Source of the DNA: Tubulanus polymorphus
Taxonomy: Eukaryota; Nemertea; Palaeonemertea; Tubulaniformes; Tubulanidae
Direction: 5' to 3'
NCBI RefSeq assembly: GCF_964204645.1
Contig: NC_134029.1
Coordinates: 6,023,001 to 6,087,000 of the forward strand
DNA length: 64,000 bases
In this document: one piece after another, positions 24,165 to 60,962 of the stretch
How the letters are laid out: each line of letters opens with the position of its first letter
How positions within the stretch are numbered: the stretch's first letter is position 1
Notes under the pieces: generated by a model
Told to the model about the DNA's origin: nothing
Seen by the model: only the letters and a program-made list of their open reading frames with translations
Database searches by the model: none
Position numbers and translations under genes: made by a program

Positions 24165-41844
<17,680 letters not shown>

Positions 41845-45515: not shown

Positions 45516-45532
45516 TTATTGGTCTGTTGCCT
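45516..45532 (-). CDS. pseudo-ADAMTS exon 15 (stop)
   Basis: Acceptor TTTTGTTTTCAG, then two bases completing a Glu codon, ATDQ and TAA. An AATAAA hexamer overlaps the stop codon (45515-45520, minus strand) and another lies about 13 bases beyond. Confidence 0.75.
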
Positions 45533-48500
45533 CTGAAAACAAAAATGCATTGTATTAAGAAAAAACGGTGTTTTTGAGTGATTAAATGATTTGACTTAGT
45601 CTCACCTCTACTGCAAATGATGAAATCTGATTGGAATTCACATGGCATAGGCAGCCATTTGCCAGCATTATCACCGCTAGTCCATCCAGCTATAACTGTG
45701 CACTTATCCCCGTTCCATTCATATTTTCCAAGCATTTTGTCACCTGGCCAACGTCCCCAATTTAAAAATGACCTGCAACCCGATTTTTAACCAAGGGAAC
45801 GTGATATTTTGCAGTTTATGTATTAGTAGTGAAATGATTCCTTACCTGCGCTCGTCGCTGTACACCTGAGTACCATCAAGCCATTGGAGCGCACCCCATA
45901 CAGCGCCGTTTGGACCGGGTACTGTCCAACGCACTCCGATGTGAGCTAACTTTTTATCGTCTGGACTTTTCGACCCTGTATTAAGCATTCTGAAACGTAG
46001 TTTCGTGCCGAAGGTTTATCGTACGCCAGGTTACGAAAATCGGTGGCAAACAAACAATAGCTTTTCGATACAGGCGATACATTACCTGAGAACAACATCA
46101 TTTTGTTTTTGGTTCATTATTTGCGCGGTAAGCCCGCCGCGAGCCTGGCAGAACAAATCAGTCATATATCCGTCAATGTTTCCGTTTCGAGGCCATCCTC
46201 TGTAGCAGAATTTACCTTCACGCGTCCAGCCAACAGGACAACCTAATCGAATACTGATTGCAATTAATCGATCAGATACCAACTACTTAGTATGCAATTT
46301 ACACAAAATAATCGCTCGTTACCGGATCTATCTGGCGTTGTGTCCGACTCCAGATCCTTTGTACAGAATGCCACATCAGCCAGCTGACATTTCTCGACTG
46401 ACCTTGGTTTTGATAGATACTTTTCACATTCACTATCTGGCAAATCCTTTAATGAAATCCGGATTTAACAAACATCAAATGTCACAAGAAGATGTGGATT
46501 TATTATACAATACATGCATACCTTATTTCCTTTAGCGCACTTAATCGTTCGTGTTTTTGTCGCTTCACCGCAGCAATCCGCCCATTTTCCAATGCGCCAC
46601 CTATTGTAATAAACGAACGGATTACTGGTTTCTCGTGATGATATTAGAGATAGTTATCTCTTGATATTCTACCTTGGATTGGATGCAATTTCTACTTTTT
46701 TCGTCGTCTTTTTGTCATCGTTCACACACGCACCGGAATTACAAACCTAAATGAAAGAGCATTTTGCACAACGAATCTGAGAACAAAATAAAGCAAATGC
46801 AGGAGTATACATAAGTCCAACGCAAATCCAACCCACTTTGTTGTTGGCACATAGTGAGCCTTCTAGAGCTGACATTCTACGATCGTGCGACTCGACGACT
46901 GTGTGCGGCCACGTTTTATCGCGACGTATACACCTGAGAGCTTGACAGATATCCGGTCTTTTCAAACTAGCGCTAAGAACGGCCTACAGCATAATGAAAA
47001 AATACGCGACATTATTCTTAGATCCTTTAGAGATAGAAAAATATTAGATATACCGTACATTAAACAAAGCTTCTTTTGGGCTTTGGTTGTAAAATTATAC
47101 AGGCTTTGGTCATGAAATTAGAATAGCCCATTCTCTACTGAGGAGTCCGTAAAATCTCGGTAAGATTAAATATTCGGTTATTGACGGAATGCGTGAGTGT
47201 TTGTTACCTCGAAATCGTTACCGTACGAGCTTCGACATTGCTCAATCGGATTGATCAGGTGACCGGGCTCCGCTTCAAAAATTGGACTCGCATCAATCTT
47301 AGGCTGATCTCGAATACAAGGCATTCTGTCTACTCTATATGAGATATCTATGTCCAATGAAACTGTATGAATATTTCTAAAGTTTTTGTTGTAACTCAAA
47401 TACTATTAATACCTGTCTATCCATTTCTTTACAAATTCAAGGGAACAGTCGGTCCAAAAATATTTAGGGACTTCGGTGTGACTCAACGCCCAGTGCTGAC
47501 CCATTATACTGCCTATCGTCGATGCGGCTTGGCATTTCATATTTTTCGATGTTTCGTCTTGTGGCATCCCGAACCTTAAACAGAAAGGTTATTCATTCCT
47601 ATTCGATAACTGTTCAGATTTAACATTTTAGCACCGTACGAAAAAGACAAATAACGTACGTAGCCGCAATCAAACTCGCCAACTCGACTGCGGATGCAAA
47701 TCCTTCGTCACGAATGACACCATTGCTGCTAGGACCACAAAGGAAGCCGTTTGCTTGCACATTATTCATTCTATGGCTAGAGTCAGAAAAATCTGCGTCG
47801 TAACATTTGCAATCTAACGAAGACCGAGTGTTCCAGATATTGCGATGGTTTACCGTGTTAAAAGGATAGCCGTATCGAAATGTTCGCTGGGTTTTTTATT
47901 TCTGCTTATATATTCATCGAAAGCCAGTTTCAATTCGTACGTCAGATCGAAAGATTGGATATCGAGATCCTTCTACAAAATTACATCGTAAAGCTGCTTA
48001 CTTATAATTACCATTTGAATATTTATAGCACAATTTCATTCACAAACGCCACAATTACAGTTCACGCAAATGCTTACTGGATTTTCCTTCATTATTTCAA
48101 TATTTGCCAATGCAATGTTGACGGGAAATCCAAGCTTTCCTTCCTCAAAGTGAGATTGTGTCTATATTTGTAAAATATTCATATACATAAATCATATACA
48201 ATCACGATAAAACGTAATATTTACCGAACCATCAAAATATCGGAAATACCTAAAACTATTAATACAGCTGTAATAAGCTGCTCGTAAATGCGATATGAAA
48301 TTATTTCATTCAAAAATAACGTTCACTCGAACGTTACTCACGGAATAGAACAATTCGACGATATATGACTGTAGTCGATCACCGTAGAAATCAAACATGG
48401 TTTTGTCAGCCACTAATTTCACTTCTACATGGATATTTCCAGCCGAAGAAAATATAACTACAATGGATTTTCATTTATAGGTTTCAGATATGCACAAAAA

Positions 48501-48616
48501 TGTCACACTAATCTTGAAGCTGCTGGTTTCAAAATTTCGAAAAGTAATTGTTAAAGTATCTTATTACCAGAAGTTGATAATGCCAGTAGGCATAACCGAG
48601 CGACAACAGGGAGCAT
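45516..48616 (-). CDS. secreted pseudo-metalloprotease of the ADAMTS type with a C-terminal C-type lectin domain (gene span, 15 exons)
   Basis: Fifteen exons, all flanked by GT-AG sites and in matching phase, give 540 residues. Order: signal peptide (1 to about 17); reprolysin/ADAMTS-like metalloprotease domain (18-199); disintegrin-like and Cys-rich segments (200-311); thrombospondin-like Cys module (312-379); C-type lectin-like domain (380-536); tail ATDQ. The fold-defining blocks are clear: VKLVADKTMFDFYGDRLQSY, HFDTAILLTR, the GFLCGP...DEGF lead-in, FGMPQD and an IMG Met-turn. The zinc motif HExxHxxGxxH is replaced without any gap by SLIAATFGMPQ (140-150), so all three His ligands and the catalytic Glu are lost. 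The signal exon joins the protease domain directly across a 143-bp intron, leaving no room for a prodomain. Introns are 72-224 bp. The inferred role is an extracellular binding protein, not an enzyme. Confidence 0.88.
45606..45772 (-). CDS. pseudo-ADAMTS exon 14 (C-type lectin domain, part 3)
   Basis: Acceptor GTTGCAG, donor AGAG|GTGAGA, phase 2 to 1. It encodes FLNWGRWPGDKM, GDKCTVIAGWTSGDNAGKWL and PCEFQSDFIICSR, the last CTLD strands with their paired Cys. The EPN/QPD and WND calcium-site motifs are not present in recognisable form. Confidence 0.9.
45846..45989 (-). CDS. pseudo-ADAMTS exon 13 (C-type lectin domain, part 2)
   Basis: Acceptor GTTTCAG, donor CGCAG|GTAAGG, phase 2 to 2. It encodes KLAHIGVRW (WIGL-like strand) and WLDGTQVYSDER. 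Confidence 0.9.
46086..46242 (-). CDS. pseudo-ADAMTS exon 12 (C-type lectin domain, part 1)
   Basis: Acceptor TCGATTAG, donor CTCAG|GTAATG, phase 1 to 2. It encodes GCPVGWTREGKFCYRGW, the long-form CTLD start, and the FCQARGGLTAQIMNQ helix. Confidence 0.9.
46323..46446 (-). CDS. pseudo-ADAMTS exon 11 (thrombospondin-like, second half)
   Basis: Acceptor TCATTAAAG, donor TCCG|GTAACG, phase 0 to 1. It encodes DLPDSECEKYLSKPRSVEKC and then QLADVAFCTKDLESD. It supplies the remaining Cys residues of the TSP1-like module and a linker to the lectin domain. Confidence 0.8.
46522..46600 (-). CDS. pseudo-ADAMTS exon 10 (thrombospondin-like, first half)
   Basis: Acceptor TACAATAG, donor AATAAG|GTATGC, phase 2 to 0. 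It encodes RWRIGKWADCCGEATKTRTI then KCAKGNK, resembling a TSP1 repeat (WxxGxWxxCxxxCG...R.xxC). Confidence 0.85.
46673..46746 (-). CDS. pseudo-ADAMTS exon 9
   Basis: Acceptor TTCATTTAG, donor CCAAG|GTAGAA, phase 0 to 2. It encodes VCNSGACVNDDKK, the KWCxxGxCV element that closes the ADAMTS disintegrin-like region. Confidence 0.87.
46837..46983 (-). CDS. pseudo-ADAMTS exon 8 (disintegrin/Cys-rich)
   Basis: Acceptor TTATGCTGTAG, donor AACAAA|GTGGGT, phase 0-0, 49 codons. It encodes DICQALRCIRRDK and SALEGSLCANNK, the CxxLxC ... AxxGTxC pattern of ADAMTS proteins. Confidence 0.87.
47208..47325 (-). CDS. pseudo-ADAMTS exon 7 (disintegrin-like)
   Basis: Acceptor GTAGACAG, donor TTCGAG|GTAACA, phase 2 to 0. 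It encodes MPCIRDQPK and PGHLINPIEQCRSSYG, matching the CLxDxP and DEQCRxxFG blocks of the ADAMTS disintegrin-like domain. Confidence 0.88.
47413..47574 (-). CDS. pseudo-ADAMTS exon 6 (third zinc position and Met-turn)
   Basis: Acceptor TTTAAG, donor GACAG|GTATTA, phase 2 to 2. It encodes TFGMPQDETSKN (Gln in place of the third zinc His), then STIGSIMGQ (Met-turn) and FWTDCSLEFVKKWIDR, the WSxCS block of ADAMTS domains. Confidence 0.88.
47660..47776 (-). CDS. pseudo-ADAMTS exon 5 (disabled active-site helix)
   Basis: Acceptor GACTCTAG, donor GGCTAC|GTACGT, phase 2 to 2. It encodes HRMNNVQANGFLCGPSSNGV and IRDEGFASAVELASLIAA. The last residues take the place of the A-H-E-L-G-H helix of active enzymes. 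Confidence 0.85.
47854..47972 (-). CDS. pseudo-ADAMTS exon 4
   Basis: Acceptor TTTTGTAG, donor ACACG|GTAAAC, phase 0 to 2. It ends KPSEHFDTAILLTR, the highly conserved strand that precedes the active-site helix in ADAM/ADAMTS proteins. Confidence 0.9.
48078..48143 (-). CDS. pseudo-ADAMTS exon 3
   Basis: 66 bp, phase 0-0, acceptor CTTTGAG, donor CCA|GTAAGC. It encodes EGKLGFPVNIALANIEIMKE, the second strand of the protease domain. Confidence 0.85.
48342..48424 (-). CDS. pseudo-ADAMTS exon 2 (start of protease domain)
   Basis: Acceptor CCATGTAG, donor TTCC|GTGAGT, phase 1 to 0. It encodes the first strand and helix, VKLVADKTMFDFYGDRLQSY, matching the VETLVVADxxM opening of ADAM/ADAMTS catalytic domains. 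Confidence 0.85.
48568..48616 (-). CDS. pseudo-ADAMTS exon 1 (signal peptide)
   Basis: ATG at 48616-48614, then MLPVVARLCLLALSTS and one base before donor TCTG|GTAATA. The frame is open further upstream (an alternative Met would add MVNRALSLVRVGK), but the shorter start gives a textbook signal peptide. Confidence 0.75.
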
Positions 48617-51600
48617 CTTTCCGACACGTACGAGTGACAAAGCACGATTTACCATTTCAGCATCGATGTCAACTTTAGTCATTGTATAAATATATATAAA
48701 TATATAACACTGCGATGAGTTCCCAAGAACAGAAAATATGATTGATTGTGCAAATATTTGGCCTGTTTTATCATTGGCATTGTTTGAAATTACAAATGTT
48801 GTCACGATGTGTGATGAGTATTAATCGATGTATGTGAACTCGACCTTGCGAACATGAAATTCGGTTGGATATTCGTTTCAAATAATTACCGATATAAAAG
48901 TGTATTCGTAGCAATTAGATTTTGAAATATATATCTTGCACCACGGGATATCGGGAATGTGACTAAATTTCTTTGCTTTAAGAGACTAATTTAGTTAATT
49001 AGTTGTATTTTGCTGAACTATAAGCGCCCTTCATTTGTACACTCTGCTCCACAAATCTGCATTTTCACGTATCTGTTATGTGAAACACTCTGAAACGCTG
49101 AATCCGACGACCTAGCAGACGTGAAAATCCATTCCGTAGTTCGTCTGCCGCGTAACTATGGAAACTGCATCCCGTACTGGTTTCATGTCATCAGCATATC
49201 GATGCGGCTGATTCATGTCACCAATAAAACGCTAAAATATGTACCAGGAGACACTGCGTCGTATACTAGTTAATATGTAAACGGCTCGGAGAGCAGGATT
49301 CTGATGGGTAAGTAATGTTATGATGTGCAGGTTTGGGTAAGGTTTATGTTATTTTGCAGACGTCTGACGCTGATGGTAAAGGAATGAGGATACGTAGACG
49401 CAGTTGGTGTCATTTCAATTTTAATCAGGATGAACTTCTGGGAAATTAGCTATTTCAGCAATCTGCAGCGCCTATTCTAAATCTTTCTTTATAAATGCCA
49501 ACAAAATCAACTAATTGAAGATTCAACTTCATTTTGACCATTACGAAATGTAGTACAAAGCGGCATTGGGAAGCGGCATTGTAAAGGTGGCATTGGAAGT
49601 AAACAACGCATGCAATTCAGGAGCAGAAGGTGCTATGTCGAATGCATGGATAGAACGGATAATAATTTGTCCTCATCTTATATTTTCCGGATACAAAAAC
49701 TACATTGTACCAAACGTTAGATTTAGCAGGGAGAAGATTAACGGCCTGTCATAAAGATTGTTGCGCATGGAATATTTTATGTTCATTAATGCAGTAGTAA
49801 TCAGATATATTGATCGGTAGGATCGATGACTTCGGATATCGTAATATCCTGATGAGCTTGTTAAGTCTGTTCTTATGTTGTTAGTTGGTCACCTTTCCCG
49901 CATACAATATTCCCGTTTTCGTCTGCTGATTCAAAGGAAACTACAACCAACCTACTCCCTCCCGTCAAAAAAAATAAACCCGACTGAAGCACTCTTAAAT
50001 CTTGAGAAAGTGGAAATCTATACGCCTAGCTCCATGGGTGTTAGCTCTTCCTAGATTCAGGAATAGCCGAAGCGATGACTGAAAATTTTCTTTCTTCAAA
50101 TGAATGGATTTTTAAAACCGCACGTATGACTCAGATGTTGAGTCTGGATCTATTGTTACCTGCTTACAGTAACCGGTTCTGCGATAGCGCATTGGTGATT
50201 TTCTCACCATCAGCTATAATACTAGAGTATAACTGCTGTACACGTTGCGCAGTCTAGTATGGATTCTGCCTTATATGGAAACCGGCAAGATGGACGCCCC
50301 GGCATTGCTGCGATGTAAGTAATTATTGCAATTTTCATTCATCAGGAACAATCATCTTACGAGGATGTATTTCGATGATACCACGTTTTAAATCTCATTA
50401 CTTAGATGAATGCCAAGAAGGTTGTTACGGATATTTGAATTAAGGTCAGGAGCAATGACATTTCATTTGTCCACACAACGAATACTCAACTATGTACACA
50501 TTTAGCACGAACAAGGTCTGCATTTAACAGGACTGCGAATGAAAGCAAGTTAATTCTCAAACAAATAAACATTTTATTGAGTATTTTCAAAGGATTAACT
50601 GCAATTCACACTTAATTTGGTGCTTTCAATTACTTTAGACGCAGAACTGTCAAATGTTTAATCTTAAAGACAGACAATAGACTATATTGTACTTGAAGGT
50701 CTATAAGTGATATAGCCAGAGATCACGTTTACGTTTATTTCAACATGAAAATCTTAGTTCTGATAAATCATAATTCATTTCTATAAATAGTAAATAATTT
50801 TACAACATGTAGCCTATACGACTGTACATGGTAATCGTTTCATCAGAGACTAACGCCTTATAAGCTCAGATAATCCAAACTCGGCGCTACACTGGGTTCG
50901 TTAAGCACCGATTTGAAAACGTAGCCAAACACACTCGGACAACACTTCAGTCTGAACGTATTTTGCTTGGAGAGCCACGCTCCTCCAAATTTGCTTGATA
51001 ATGATGTCGAAAATAATTATGTCAAGATGAACACGACATTCGAGTATTATTCCGTATGAAGTTCTGTAATTGAGCAATATTTTTTCGTACTGTTTAAATG
51101 TCATACCAGATATTTAGAATTCAAGGCACGCATTTTCTCCCTGTGTTTTCGCGTTTTTCAATCGGAATCTCAATTTCAATGTATTCTCTTACATTTCTAA
51201 ACTGTCGAAATTTACACCGACGCCTATATTTGCATACTTCATTCAAACGGCCTCGACAAAGGTAAGTGCTTTTAAAACGGACTAAACACTTATATTTGCA
51301 TCGATATACATAATATTACGGGGCACTTCGCGGCCTTACTTCGTCGCGCCGCGCAGGCTGACGCCGGCTCAGCTCTTTCTGGCTACAGTGAACAATTTTC
51401 GAAAAACGAATTAAATTTTCGCCGTGAACAGAAAACAACACGAGCTTTAACCAGATTATAGTTTATTCTAACGAGCATCGTATGCGTTTAATATGGAGAA
51501 GAGAGGTATTATGTATATATGATATAAAGTGGCGCAGATGTTAGGAGCAGTCAGGCTTACACTTCGTCAGCGCGTTCGAAACAACTATCAATATCGGCTC

Positions 51601-52668
51601 CTACTTATCAGCGAGGGTTAAAAACAACGAGACCGTTTGCCCGGATAACGAGTTCATAAGTTCAGTCGTTTATATCCCATGCACATATTATGTGCATTTT
51701 GCGTATTCTACGGATGGAACAATAGGCAGTTAACAGTAATTGTATATTCTACATCTCAAAATGGAACCGAAACCAAGGCAATCGTTATATTCAATAAGAT
51801 CGTGGTTGGAAACGGTAAGTCCTGGGAGAATAATGTAGCGCGAGGAATAGAAGAGACTCCGGTTTGGTGACGGCAAGGATTCATGTCTAATGTGCTATAT
51901 GAACTAGGGACTGGGTTCCAACTTAATTGTGGTTTTTCATGAATTTACTTCGATAATATTCAGGGGCGGATATTTGAGCAACGATGGCTTATCATGCGCA
52001 GTGTTTTCCCAAATATATTTTTTTCGTATTTCGATGAAAAATGCATTCGTAAAAATGTGTGCAGACAGTAATTTCTAGCAGGCACCGAAACAGCAATCAG
52101 TAAAGATTTGAAATGTGGTTAGTTTCATCATTAATATGATTGATATGACTATCAGAAAACTTTCGAACACGGAGCGGGGGTTCGAGACTCCCTAAACCCT
52201 ACCCCCCTAGTTCTTGGGCGATAGTGTTTGTGCGGCTGCTCAAAGAAAACCAACCTATCTTATGCATTGTATATGTTAAATGCAATATATAGATATGTAG
52301 ACTAGAAGGGAATAATTGAAACATTGGCGTGACGCGTGTGTGTTTATGCTTATTACGGTATCTATCATGATATGTATTTATATATTCCGATATCATGAAA
52401 TTCATATTTGTTTTACAATTCTTGTCATGGAAACATTTAAAGGTCAATGATGGCCCAATCCAGTGGCAAATAAGCTTCAATTTACGGAAAACAATTAAAC
52501 GTTCTTAGAATGACTTGCTTCGAATACATTCTCGGAGTATAGCGTCGCATAAAGTTTTCGTACATGCTAGCTATACTTGAACTCTATAAATGAACATCCT
52601 TGTTTCCCATAAGAATACATAAGATACCGATTTATTCTCTTAGGGTATCAAATTTCATTTCATTGCAG
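48617..52668. other. divergent intergenic region between the pseudo-ADAMTS gene and the TRIM gene
   Basis: Promoters of both genes should lie here. A GC-richer patch near 51320-51400 and a perfect donor (ACAAAG|GTAAGT, exon end about 51261) could mark a 5' non-coding exon of the TRIM gene, which has a clear acceptor just before its start codon. G-rich repeat scraps occur near 51961 and 52168. No coding exon is recognised. Confidence 0.4.
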
Positions 52669-52683
52669 ATTACCGAATCAACG

Positions 52684-54897
52684 ATGGCTAATCAGAGCAA
52701 GTCAGATGCATCATTTTCTTCAAACTCGGCGACAAACACTTGCTTGAACTGTACTATTTGCTGCCAGACTTATAAAAGACCGAAAGTTCTTCCTTGCTTG
52801 CACACGTTCTGTGAACAGTGCTTGAACGACTACATTCCGGCGGAAAGTATTTCGGTCACTTGTCCGATTTGTAAGCACCAGTCGATCATACCGGTCGATG
52901 GGGTTTCCGCATTGCAGAGGAACAGCTACATCGAAGGCATAATGAACAGTATGGCTACTCAGCACAGCGACGAAAAGTCGACTTGTTCGACTTGCAAAGA
53001 ACAGGAAATCGTCACTCAGAAATGTGTTCAGTGCTCGACGACATTTTGCGATGGGTGTTCGTCTGCTCATAAACAAAACGAATTAACAAACACGCACGAT
53101 ATCGTAAATATTGATAACGGTCTAGTTGGAAATGGCAATGCTCCATCAGAGGATATCAAATGCCCTATGCACGATGGACAAGCGTTTCATTTCTATTGTA
53201 CATCTTGCGAAACGGCCATATGCGAAAGCTGTTCACAACTCGAACACCAAGAACACGCTTTTATCCCCCTGAAAGAGGCCATCGCAGAACACAAGGCGAC
53301 CTTGGAGTCGCTCTTAACTAATGCAAAGGCCAAAGCTCCTGCAATAAACGCTGCTATCGCAACTGTCGATAATATCTGTAAATCATTGACGAACTCGTTC
53401 AAAACTGCTGAAAACGATACCAACACGTGGTTTGATACGATGTCACAACTGCTTACGCAACGAAAAGCGATGTTGCTGGAAGACTTGAAGTCGGCGTACG
53501 GTGGAAAGGTCGCCGTGTTAAAAAATCAGAAAGACGATCTGTATAAGCTCCTGAATACGATAGACAGTTGTTGCGAGCTGACTACGAACGCTTTAGAACA
53601 CGGCAACGACACGGAAATTATCCTAATCAAAAAAGAAATGGCCGAAAAACTACAAATTTTGGCGACGTCGACCAACAAGAAATTCTTACCGGAGGAAAAT
53701 GATATGTTAATGTTTACCGACACGGATACCGATGACGTCAAGGCCAGTATATCGACGTTCGGTCGCGTGCAGACGAACAGCGCTGTAGCTTTCCAGACGA
53801 CGGCTAGCGGGGATGGGCTGAAACGTTGTTTTACAAATATACAAACGGTTATTACGGTAACAACGAAGGACCGAAACGGGACTTTAGTAGCCGACGGTAG
53901 TGCGGATATCGACGCTGAACTGGTGAGTAACAATGGGGACGTTGTTCCTATAGAAATTGCCGATAATTTGAATGGTACGTATGACATAACGTTTCGTACC
54001 AAAACGGATGGGCGATACCATTTGGATGTGAAATTGTTCGGCCAACCGATACGCGCTTCGCCGTTTAGAATTAAATCTATGCCAATACCGGAGGGTTACC
54101 AAAAAGATCGGTCACCGACTAAGATCCCGCGATCTAGTAGTAGCGTAGCTAAACGAAGTTCGAAAAGGATGTCCAGTTCTGGTCGTTCGCACGGCTCGAA
54201 CCATCGCAAGAGCAACCCGATCGAAGACGACCTCATCGACCGCATCGGTACGAAAGGTCGAAACAAGGGCGAGTTTACAAATCCGCAAGGACTTTGCGCA
54301 TCCGCTGGAAGAATTCTCGTAGCCGATAGTAATAACCAAAATATACAAGTATTCTGCAATAAGGGCGATTTCAAATTTCGTTTCGGTATAAGAGGCCGAA
54401 ACGCCGGTCAGATGCAAAGGCCAACGGGCGTGTTCGTTACTATGTATGGGAACTATGTAGTAGCCGATTACGACAATCGGTGGGTGAGTATTTATAGCCC
54501 GGACGGAAAATACCTAAACAAAATCGGTCAGGGAAAGCTGCTTGGACCTAAAGGAATAACGGTAGACAGGAATGGTCATATCATTGTCGTAGACAATAAA
54601 GCTAGTTGTATTTGCGTGTTCCAATCGAATGGAAAAATGCTGCATAAATTTGGGACGCGCGGCAATGGCGAAAGTCAACTGGCCGGACCACATTACGTAG
54701 CCGTCAATTCGAACAATGATATCATAGTATCTGACTTCCATAACCACTGCATAAAGGTATTCGACAGCGAAGGGAAATTTTTATTTAGTTTCGGTTCCAA
54801 TGGCGAAGGTAACGGTCAGTTCAATGCACCGACAGGGGTCGCTGTGGATTCGCATGGAAATATACTCGTTGCTGATTGGGGGAACTCTAGGATACAG
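52684..54897 (+). CDS. TRIM2/3-like coding exon 1
   Basis: 738 codons ending in phase 0 at GGATACAG|GTATCG. It covers the RING through most of the NHL propeller ([58 protein letters not shown]). Intron retention would add only Val-Ser before a stop and remove the last NHL blade. Confidence 0.95.
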
Positions 54898-55183
54898 GTA
54901 TCGTAAACATTAGTCGTTAATAAAAAAATCCATTAAATTTGGGTCTTGAAGAGGACTGCGGGTAGATAAATATTTTGATTTGTGTCATTTTAAGACAAAC
55001 ACTTAAACAGAAATTGTTTTTATGTTGCAGATTTTTGACAGCTGCGGTTCATTTCTGTCGTATATAAATTCATCTGTCGACCCGTTGTACGGACCGCAGG
55101 GACTAGCCGTGACGTCAGATGGAAATGTCGTAGTCGCCGACTCCGGCAATCATTGTCTTAAAGTTTATAAATATCTGCAATGA
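52684..55183 (+). CDS. TRIM2/TRIM3-like E3 ubiquitin ligase (RING, two B-boxes, coiled coil, filamin, NHL; gene span)
   Basis: Two coding exons (52684-54897 and 55031-55183) give about 788 residues. Order: C3HC4 RING (about 23-64, [20 protein letters not shown]); B-box1-like zinc motif (about 98-135); B-box2 (about 158-200, [13 protein letters not shown]); coiled coil (about 200-330); filamin/ABP280 repeat (about 375-480); a basic Ser-rich linker; and six NHL propeller blades (about 525-788). The C-terminus [13 protein letters not shown]...VYKYLQ closely resembles TRIM2/TRIM3, which act in the cytoplasm, including in neurons, as ubiquitin ligases and cargo adaptors. I chose the ATG at 52684 because a strong acceptor (TTTCATTGCAG, ending 52668) lies just upstream, so the open frame before it is intron. 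A B-box1 is unusual for TRIM2/3. Confidence 0.95.
55031..55183 (+). CDS. TRIM2/3-like coding exon 2
   Basis: Acceptor TATGTTGCAG, 50 codons then TGA. It encodes [20 protein letters not shown] and the last NHL blade [18 protein letters not shown], which closes the propeller. Confidence 0.95.
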
Positions 55184-58226: not shown

Positions 58227-60898
58227 CTACATTATACACGTTGAATATCAATTAGACTTACAATCATCAAAACAAAAAGGGCTCCGGAATTTCGGTTGAC
58301 GAGTGACTGTAGTGACGGCGCACTAACCCTACTAACTATCGTCCATGCGCGAGACATCATCCAAGTTCGAATCAATGTGTAGCCTAACCTCTCTCGCCAC
58401 ATAGATGAATGTAATATAGATGCAGATTGTATTTGTATTTGAATGTGTATTGCAATTGCCTTTTAAGGTATCTTTAAGAGATTATCATAATCACTATCAT
58501 ATACGTACCGGTATTCATTGCAAGGAAATTGTATTCATTGTCGATAGCAAGGGAAAATGTACTTACTGATTGTATATCCGAGTGTTGGGATGGCTTCTGC
58601 CGCGACGGTCCATTTCCAGTCTTTGCAGTGATGTTTATAGGGTACATTGTCGACGTAACATTTTGTCACATTGAAGCGACTAGCGTCGTTTACCGGACAC
58701 TGTTGACAACGTCTGCACATAAACGCTTCGTTCTCGTAGTATCCTGAAAATGTATTCCTAAGTTGTACTTAGATCCCCGAAAGTTCTTTTTTCGATTTCC
58801 ACTCATTCAAACAAGGGGTACCGGCACTGCTACTGCGGCAATCGAGTATTCCATTTATGGCAGGCGAGGATCCGCCAGGTTCGCTAGTGGTTACTCAGTC
58901 ACCGCGCTCCAATTTCTTCTACATTTCAATGAAATTCGAATCAACTTTTCGCATTGGCAAATCATTTTTGAGTGAAACAATATCATACACTCATTGGGTA
59001 AGTCAATTTTATATCTATTTGATGGTTTGTTTAAAAAATATTTTAATTTGGGAGCCTTAAAATCCAGTTCAAAATTCATTGAAAACGAACTGATTTTCAG
59101 TACCTATAACCGAGTGCATTGTTGCGCCATCTGGTGTGTGCCGGTACCCAAAGCACTTCTGTAAAAATCATGGAATTTGAAATACTAAGAAGAGTCAATA
59201 TGCCAATTACGTTTAGATTTATATTCGTGACTTGAAATATACATTGGTAATCGCTTATCTGGCGACAGATGAGGGAAATTTTAAGGTTTTCATGCATATT
59301 AGTCAGCATGGACATCCGCATGCACTTACGCGCATATCTTTATTACGAGGGGAATCCTATGGCGACTGATAAAAGGCCATACGAATATTTCTCGACAGAA
59401 AAATAATTGCGTCATAACAGATGAATTTCCATCGAAGTGAAAATAAACCTCGTTCAAAATATATATTACACCTAAAATCATTTCGTTATGAAAAAAATCA
59501 ATATTTGCGTCAGTAAAAGTATTCCCGCAATAGAAAATAAACCGCCTTCCTTCAACATCCGGTGACTAAGATATTTTTGCAGTGTAAAAAATGATTTGGG
59601 TTTTTCCGCTGTTGCACGCGTTGCACGTTGTCGATTGCGCAGTACTATGCTGTGGTAACGGCAGGCCTACCGCAACAGCCCTAAGTATATGGACGTTTCG
59701 CATTCTAGATATCGTACTACGCGGCGCGGGGCTGACGCAATTTCAATACCCACCTCATATATACGCGTGAATCAGGGTGACCCAGGTGCGAGCTTTGGTT
59801 TTGGATCCCAAAATAGAAATACGTAGAAATAGATATTTTTGGGTACGACCTAGTTTAATAGCCAAGCCTTACACCTAACAGTCAAACTACCAATCCTGGA
59901 CTACCGTAGATTAATAGAAGGGCCAAAAATAACGGAAACAAGTTGCTTTAGCCGTAGGATAAAAACGAAGACATCTTTTAGTTGATATCCCGTTCACCAC
60001 TCTTCAACATAAACACTATACCGTCCCCCTAGATTTAGTGCATTCAAGCGCCGCAAATGGGGAAACCCGAAATTATTTTTACAGCTAAGAAATCTAAGAC
60101 ATACGAAAACATTTCGACGGAGATGGAATTATTTTTGAAATATATTTCGAAAGCGACTTACTTTTAAATATACCGAAATCATTTTCACTTACGAATTTGA
60201 ATGGAATTATTTATTTGTTATTGAGATTATATTCATATTCACGTAGATATTTTGAAGGCGCTTATTTTGCATAACGAAATCATTTTCGGGTACTGACATA
60301 TTTTGAATGCGATTCTGTTTTCAGAGCGGAATCATTTTCACTTTCGAAAATTTTTCGATGGAATCTATTTCTTATGAAGGAATAATTTTTACTTTACGCA
60401 TATATTTTGATGGGAATTTATTTGTTTTGAAATTGTTTTCGTCAAGAAATGTTTTATGGCCCTTATCAGCCTCCATAGAGTGCCTATGTGCATAAATTTG
60501 TTTGGTTACTAAAAATATAGCTCATATCGTTCTATTGTGGGAGAATGAAACTATTATATGAGAGTCAGATAACAACATACCAGTCGAACAGTCGCCGCAG
60601 ATGGAATTTCGAGTAACCGCGCAGTTTCGCTTGTATCGACGATTCGGGCAGAAACTGCACGGTTTGCACATTTCGTCAGTTGACCACGTGTCCGAGTAGA
60701 AGCCATCGGCGCAGCGTTCGCAATAGGTGTCCGAGAACGGGCCGCACTGTCTCCGTTTCCCGAAGCCTGGCTCGCATATGGTGCACCAGCGGCACGATAG
60801 TGTATTATTATCGTAGAACATATCATCACTAGGACAGGAGTGTTCATTGCCAAAACTACCAGAAATCTGGTCATGATAATTAGATGCATGTAGATCAT
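57985..60898 (-). CDS. TNF-receptor superfamily member without death domain (gene span, 3 exons)
   Basis: This is a type I membrane receptor. Exon 1 (60581-60898) has a signal peptide MIYMHLIIMTRFLVVLA and then TNFR cysteine-rich repeats: CPSDDMFYDNNTLSCRWC, CGPFSDTYCERCADGFYSD and CKPCSFCPNRRYKRNC. Exon 2 (58567-58743) continues with CSTGYYENEAFMCRRCQQCP to the membrane. Exon 3 (57985-58226) holds the TM (FITGSVALGTMVVCVTFLLL) and a tail of about 40 residues. The cysteine spacing matches TNFR16/TROY/EDAR-type repeats. No death domain or clear TRAF-binding motif is visible. The signal peptide and the repeats lie in different frames, offset by one base near 60848. Restoring the frame would put the Ala of the signal peptide directly before NEHSCPSDD. 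This is either an assembly deletion, a broken allele, or a hidden first exon elsewhere. Confidence 0.8.
58567..58743 (-). CDS. TNF receptor exon 2 (last cysteine repeat and stalk)
   Basis: Acceptor TTTTCAG, donor ATCA|GTAAGT, phase 1 to 1, 177 bp. It encodes YYENEAFMCRRCQQCPVN, CYVDNVPYKHHCKDWKW and the juxtamembrane TVAAEAIPTLGYTI. Confidence 0.85.
58744..60580. other. TNF receptor intron 1
   Basis: About 1.8 kb with no further cysteine-repeat exon seen. The flanking exon phases already match. Confidence 0.6.
60581..60898 (-). CDS. TNF receptor exon 1 (signal peptide and first cysteine repeats; apparent frameshift)
   Basis: Donor TCGACTG|GTATGT, phase 1. The cysteine-repeat frame is open upstream to a stop near 60912. 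The signal-peptide frame starts at the ATG 60898-60896. The frames switch at GGCAATGAAC, around 60848. An alternative is an acceptor CATGACCAG at about 60868 with the signal peptide in an unseen upstream exon. Confidence 0.7.
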
Positions 60899-60962
60899 TC
60901 GACTTTTTTCAAGTACGAAATAAATGAGTGCAAAGTGACTACGAATACGTTGTAAGTTAAAT

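Follow-up and report, generated by a model that had tools for sequence, protein, structure and literature searches.

Can one ribbon worm gene join an ADAMTS-type metalloprotease scaffold to a C-type lectin-like domain (CTLD), and if so, what would its product do? The question is raised by a locus of the palaeonemertean ribbon worm Tubulanus polymorphus (assembly of 268 Mb in 77 contigs), which lies on the minus strand of a 64,000-nucleotide window taken from a chromosome-scale contig of 24,873,478 bases (NC_134029.1, positions 6,023,001 to 6,087,000; coordinates of the gene and its neighbours are window positions). An initial annotation of the window had described this locus, here termed the ADAMTS-CTLD gene, as such a fusion; the architecture stands, but the loss of the active site, the unseen prodomain, Cys-rich and spacer domains and the phase-1 borders of the CTLD had escaped it. 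The fusion looks real and constitutes one gene; its protease domain is, to judge from the residues at the zinc site, dead, the whole active site being lost, and the product is probably a binding protein and not an enzyme. An ADAMTS-CTLD protein was not found in titles and abstract openings of the open-licence literature, among the matches listed.

The reconstructed gene comprises 15 exons (48682-45516) that splice into one frame of 1749 nt, encoding 582 residues and ending with a TAA stop at 45516. All 14 introns have GT-AG borders and sizes of 72-224 nt, which bears out the fifteen in-phase exons and the intron range proposed initially; the accompanying length of 540 residues does not hold, the ATG assumed at that time (48616) yielding 560 amino acids and the ATG 48682, which is the start in the NCBI model, yielding 582. 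Exon 1 (48568..48682) contains both ATG codons, encodes a signal-like hydrophobic peptide (by eye) and ends at a GT donor. N-glycosylation sequons are absent from the 582-residue product. A 16-exon model with an extra exon at 48277-48225 was rejected because dropping this exon lifts the match to ADAMTS-5 from 47.8 to 63.7 bits and the NCBI protein skips it; the Reprolysin match also gained 9.5 bits, the two models additionally differing in 22 N-terminal residues and 3 residues at the exon-7 acceptor. The NCBI predicted protein, named ‘ADAMTS 8-like isoform X2’, has 522 residues that equal residues 1-522 of our model and spans the junction between the TSP1 repeat and the CTLD. It stops after exon 13, where read-through of the donor gives AGG TAA, and carries no CTLD label in the source record; its name implies a second isoform of the gene.

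The protease half is encoded by exons 2 to 7. The M12B metalloprotease domain starts in exon 2 (48342..48457; NIHVEVKLVADKTM...), directly after the signal-like peptide in both the NCBI and our own models, and continues, following the ADAMTS-5 alignment and the gene model, through exon 3 (48078..48161), exon 4 (47854..47972), the active-site exon 5 (47660..47776, with an alternative acceptor at 47770) and exon 6 (47413..47574) into exon 7 (47208..47334, alternative acceptor at 47325), where the disintegrin-like D* domain begins. Pfam Reprolysin matches residues 49-249 (38.3 bits, E 1.8e-9, cut-off 20.8). The closest solved relatives are ADAMTS-5, -1, and -4, with E values from 1.1e-16 (ADAMTS-5) to 1.4e-12, and their structures can be aligned with it over the protease domain, beginning at its start (chain residue 7 in ADAMTS-5), and on through D*.

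In the accessible text of PMC4448532, the ADAMTS zinc site is given as HEXXHXBG(/N/S)BXHD. The ADAMTS-5 stretch HEIGHLLGLSHD aligns with SLIAATFGMPQD in the window gene, so that HExxH...H is changed to SLIAA...Q: SLIAA takes the place of HE[LI]GH in exon 5, and exon 6 reads FGMPQD, with Gln for the third zinc His. All three zinc His residues and the catalytic Glu are replaced, and the gene lacks the ADAMTS zinc site. A Met is located 19 residues past the third-His position, within the Met-turn spacing of 14-20 given in the same source.

For comparison we used 12 other ADAM/ADAMTS loci of this genome, namely eight ADAMTS-type loci identified via PF17771 (L023-L030) and four reprolysin-only loci (L031-L034). 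The phase-2 intron after exon 5 lies where the paralogues have theirs: in all eight ADAMTS-type loci, a phase-2 GT donor follows the second-His codon plus two bases (introns inferred from sequence), the window gene reading GCG GCT vs. GGN/GCN CAY in seven loci and TTT CAT in L024. Because this intron occupies the paralogues’ codon position, the active-site alignment is anchored by more than residue similarity. The ADAM-type loci L031 and L033 read through the same place with no intron. HExxH is kept in every other ADAMTS-type locus (8 of 8), seven times as HE[LIVMF][GA]H; in L024 (8635-8979, minus strand) HELFH replaces HELGH, i.e., the active-site Gly is changed in another ADAMTS-type locus. 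Among the reprolysin-only loci, HExxH is present in L031 and L033 and was not found in the 10 kb examined for each of L032 and L034. The genome profile searches with ADAMTS_CR_2, Reprolysin and Lectin_C did not list the window’s own gene, probably owing to its division into exons. All genome counts are thus lower bounds, and neither this kind of fusion nor a dead ADAMTS is claimed to be unique in the genome.

The D* domain continues through exon 8 (46837..46983) and ends, followed by a linker, in exon 9 (46673..46746), as placed by Pfam and the ADAMTS-5 alignment. Its Pfam match, ADAMTS_CR_2 (PF17771) at residues 261-337 (38.6 bits, E 1.5e-9, above cut-off), is assigned to the disintegrin-like D* domain because the aligned ADAMTS-5, -1, and -4 structure entries are given as MD* in the accessible part of PMC4885070. 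A single TSP1 repeat follows (TSP1_ADAMTS, PF19030, residues 355-402, 28.1 bits, E 2.5e-6, above cut-off), encoded by exon 10 (46522..46600) and exon 11 (46323..46446), the latter also encoding a linker and ending in phase 1. Thus, the reprolysin-like and TSP1-like modules of the initial annotation are confirmed, and the protein shows the ADAMTS order of a D* domain and then a central TSP1 repeat. In the proposed ‘disintegrin/Cys-rich’ region, the disintegrin-like part was recovered and the Cys-rich part was not. Only ~20 residues separate the end of the TSP1 match (402) from the first CTLD Cys (423), whereas the ADAMTS Cys-rich region, which comes after TSP1, exceeds 100 residues according to the accessible text of PMC4448532; the stretch is therefore too short to hold the Cys-rich and spacer domains of an ADAMTS. 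Neither of these two domains gave a Pfam match up to E 10, in a scan that missed the CTLD as well. The prodomain PF01562 had no match near the window, which is a weak test given four matches genome-wide and none at most ADAMTS-type loci; three of the four matches are located ~5-11 kb upstream of L026, L027, and L031.

The protease-D* part contains 10 Cys vs. 16 at the aligned ADAMTS-5 positions, and the TSP1 region and the CTLD have six Cys each. Under what we take to be the ADAMTS-5 disulfide pairing order, the six losses would correspond to three complete disulfides, with five still complete; on this assumed pairing and with Cys lost at random, 56 of the 8008 possible sets of 6 Cys out of 16 would make up three complete pairs (calculated by hand). 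We relied on the pairing order alone, because the disulfide numbers as we presume them follow no single offset (D* 8 of 8 at offset 249, protease 6 of 8 at 261, by hand).

The segment from residue 422 appears to be a divergent long-form CTLD, on evidence that is weak but consistent. It is encoded by exon 12 (46086..46242; GCPVGW...), exon 13 (45846..45989) and exon 14 (45606..45772; KWLPMPC...FIICSR), and exon 15 (45516..45532) adds the final residues EATDQ and the stop codon. Lectin_C matches this segment alone with 22.4 bits (E 2.2e-4, profile positions 10-105 of 107), compared with 52.4 bits for the CTLD of L003, a control from this genome; a hidden Markov model built from three CTLDs of this genome scores the segment at 22.8 bits. 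In 2000 shuffles of the segment, 1877 of which received any reported score, the best reached 13.3 bits and none attained the score of the CTLD. Seven of its eight PDB matches are CTLDs (snaclecs, codakine, aggrecan), all weak (E 0.095-8.3), and the eighth is a hydrogenase (E 1.1). Cys 423, 434, 453, 546, and 566 align with Cys in two or more of the three same-genome CTLDs, and Cys 575 with L003 only. The segment has the Cys pattern that we take to mark long-form CTLDs and resembles codakine and the snaclecs in its six long-form Cys, WIGL-like and WLDG core and C-terminal C...C (by eye), but differs from them in the places of two motifs and in a score below the Pfam cut-off. Calcium-dependent sugar-binding C-type lectins are marked by EPN/QPD and WND motifs. 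Neither EPN nor WND is recognisable by eye in the window CTLD, where the corresponding places read WPGD and WLP; L003 encodes a CTLD with WND.

Exons 11 and 12 are separated by an 80-nt intron whose splice sites are canonical and whose phase (1) agrees on both sides, and the CTLD exons 12-14 are both entered and left in phase 1. The phase-1 entry (G|GT TGT), together with a phase-2 internal intron near the same place, recurs in two of the three CTLDs inspected, one in L004 and one in L008. The accessible text of PMC8001218 treats symmetric class 1-1 modules as a hallmark of exon shuffling among the extracellular proteins of animals. These phase-1 borders and the shared entry junction thus suggest that the CTLD likely arrived by exon shuffling. 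The genome search with Lectin_C gave at least 63 matches, and at least eight other ADAMTS-type loci are present. Eight Lectin_C matches fall within 18 kb of one contig (C2:3824576-3842438), likely a multi-CTLD gene or a tandem family. A search with the window CTLD at the 12 other ADAM/ADAMTS loci yielded two weak matches only, the better of which (E 0.56) runs antisense to the ADAMTS of its locus, with a query of low sensitivity that placed one of eight control CTLD loci (L001-L008) below E 0.01 and left four unlisted.

We consider it fairly likely that this one gene encodes a secreted, proteolytically inactive ADAMTS-family protein that acts as a non-enzymatic extracellular binder, and the secreted binding protein suggested by the initial annotation fits; the biomineral, immune or gamete roles proposed there are putative. 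In the proposed scenario, an ADAMTS gene would have lost catalysis and the prodomain, and a 1-1 CTLD module would have been shuffled in behind the first TSP1 repeat, where it took over the place of the ancillary region (Cys-rich and spacer). The part made up of dead protease, D* and TSP1 may then serve as a platform that binds matrix or substrate, and the CTLD, in which EPN and WND motifs are not recognisable, would bind a protein or matrix ligand instead of engaging in classical calcium-dependent sugar binding. The product could act as a decoy, competitor or adaptor for active ADAMTSs. More tentatively, and with less likelihood than the binder itself, the gene may be the founding example of a ribbon-worm class of non-catalytic ADAMTS-CTLD proteins, in which a dead protease forms the ligand platform and a shuffled-in CTLD that does not bind sugar replaces the ancillary domain, as a single-chain non-enzymatic counterpart of the separately evolved viper metalloproteinase-snaclec pairing.

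Several observations weigh against the binder reading. The Pfam search of the spliced protein, as proposed initially, recovered Reprolysin, ADAMTS_CR_2 and TSP1_ADAMTS and did not list Lectin_C even at E 10, and the score of the isolated segment lies just under the Pfam cut-off of 22.6 bits. The first CTLD of L004 has another exon layout (one of the three inspected). Isoform X2, without the last CTLD exon, is one predicted product with a truncated CTLD, and the NCBI gene model may be an automatic prediction. The single-sequence AlphaFold prediction for the 522-residue NCBI protein has a pLDDT of 33.6 and is useless. The loss of Cys in whole pairs presupposes the disulfide pairing that we assumed, and the function is read from architecture alone. 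Finally, no homologues were found outside this genome in exact-word protein searches, which returned only the gene’s own NCBI protein; these searches missed every standard ADAMTS and are therefore no proof that relatives are missing.

Other explanations of the locus fare less well. The product may be a toxin-like component of mucus or proboscis secretions that acts by binding, comparable, in a single chain, to the metalloproteinase-snaclec complexes of snake venom. According to the accessible parts of PMC7460313 and PMC9415933, nemertean secretions hold M12B metalloproteinases alongside C-type lectins, each as separate proteins, and T. polymorphus itself has M12B transcripts, which makes a role in mucus a real rival; moreover, RVV-X couples a metalloproteinase chain to light chains of the snaclec type (PMC4885070, accessible part). 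However, the catalytic site is gone, unlike in RVV-X, the ADAMTS D* and TSP1 modules point to matrix proteins, and the likeness to venom complexes is architectural only; we regard this explanation as rather unlikely. A decaying pseudogene of an ADAMTS fusion would account for the lost active site, the low scores and the failure to find a homologue elsewhere, but is improbable given 582 codons and 14 introns that are intact, a presumably pairwise loss of Cys and the coding status given to the gene by NCBI, whose isoform number points to a second isoform. That an ADAMTS-like gene and an adjoining CTLD gene were wrongly joined is conceivable insofar as both domain types recur in the genome in the numbers given above, fused gene models occur and the NCBI model may be automatic; yet the 80-nt gap with its canonical, phase-matched splice sites leaves no room for the stop, 3' end, promoter, start and signal peptide of two genes, and the NCBI model crosses the same junction. 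A wrong join is thus very improbable, and the initial judgement that a chance join of neighbours is unlikely is upheld by the short intron, the matching phases, the phase-1 CTLD borders and the NCBI model. That the product is a working ADAMTS protease targeted by its lectin tail, in keeping with the clear homology to ADAMTS-5, -1, and -4 and the Met-turn spacing, is hardly credible, since the replaced zinc His and catalytic Glu already contradict it and a prodomain was not found.

Among known systems, the predicted secreted, non-enzymatic binder resembles ADAMTS-1, -4, and -5 (M12B), with which it has in common the order metalloprotease - D* - TSP1 and which are its closest solved sequences, and it shares the active-site intron with the ADAMTS-type loci of its own genome. 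It differs from ADAMTS proteases in the absence of HExxHxxGxxH and of the Cys-rich and spacer domains, in a prodomain that was not found and in the CTLD at its end. ADAMTSL proteins and papilin are likewise non-catalytic, ADAMTS-related and secreted; ADAMTSLs have no catalytic domain, resemble the ancillary region and may modulate ADAMTSs (PMC4448532, accessible text). In contrast, the window gene keeps a protease domain, which appears dead, and most of the ancillary region is missing, which sets it apart from the ADAMTSL group. ADAMs are membrane proteins without TSP1, and we know of none with a CTLD. Proteinase-inactive ADAMs such as ADAM2, 22, and 23 also have a dead M12B domain, and some of these act in adhesion (PMC4885070, accessible part). 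The P-IIId snake-venom metalloproteinase RVV-X and the snaclecs pair an M12B chain with C-type-lectin-like domains whose ligands are proteins instead of sugars (accessible part of the same source). This likeness may be seen as an architectural parallel, and homology as a system is not claimed. RVV-X and the snaclecs differ in their separate chains and active protease and are not known to contain TSP1.

If expressed, the ADAMTS-CTLD gene would offer a clear case of exon shuffling, in which a recognition domain was added onto a dead protease and the phase-1 module borders are still legible. The NCBI name ‘ADAMTS 8-like’ could wrongly lead users to expect an enzyme. Other features of the window include a TRIM-NHL-type protein with RING, B-box, filamin repeat and NHL repeats in a single long frame (52594-54903, plus strand), which lies on the opposite strand to the ADAMTS-CTLD gene and ~4 kb upstream of it, and the C-terminal portion of a ligand-gated ion channel (Neur_chan_memb; 41407-41841, plus strand) ~3.7 kb past the 3' end of the ADAMTS-CTLD gene. 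An open frame at 60525-60908 (minus strand) encodes TNFR/NGFR cysteine-rich repeats in two stretches (PF00020), and a long simple repeat at 35319-35783 (minus strand) reads as a YIYIYI open frame.

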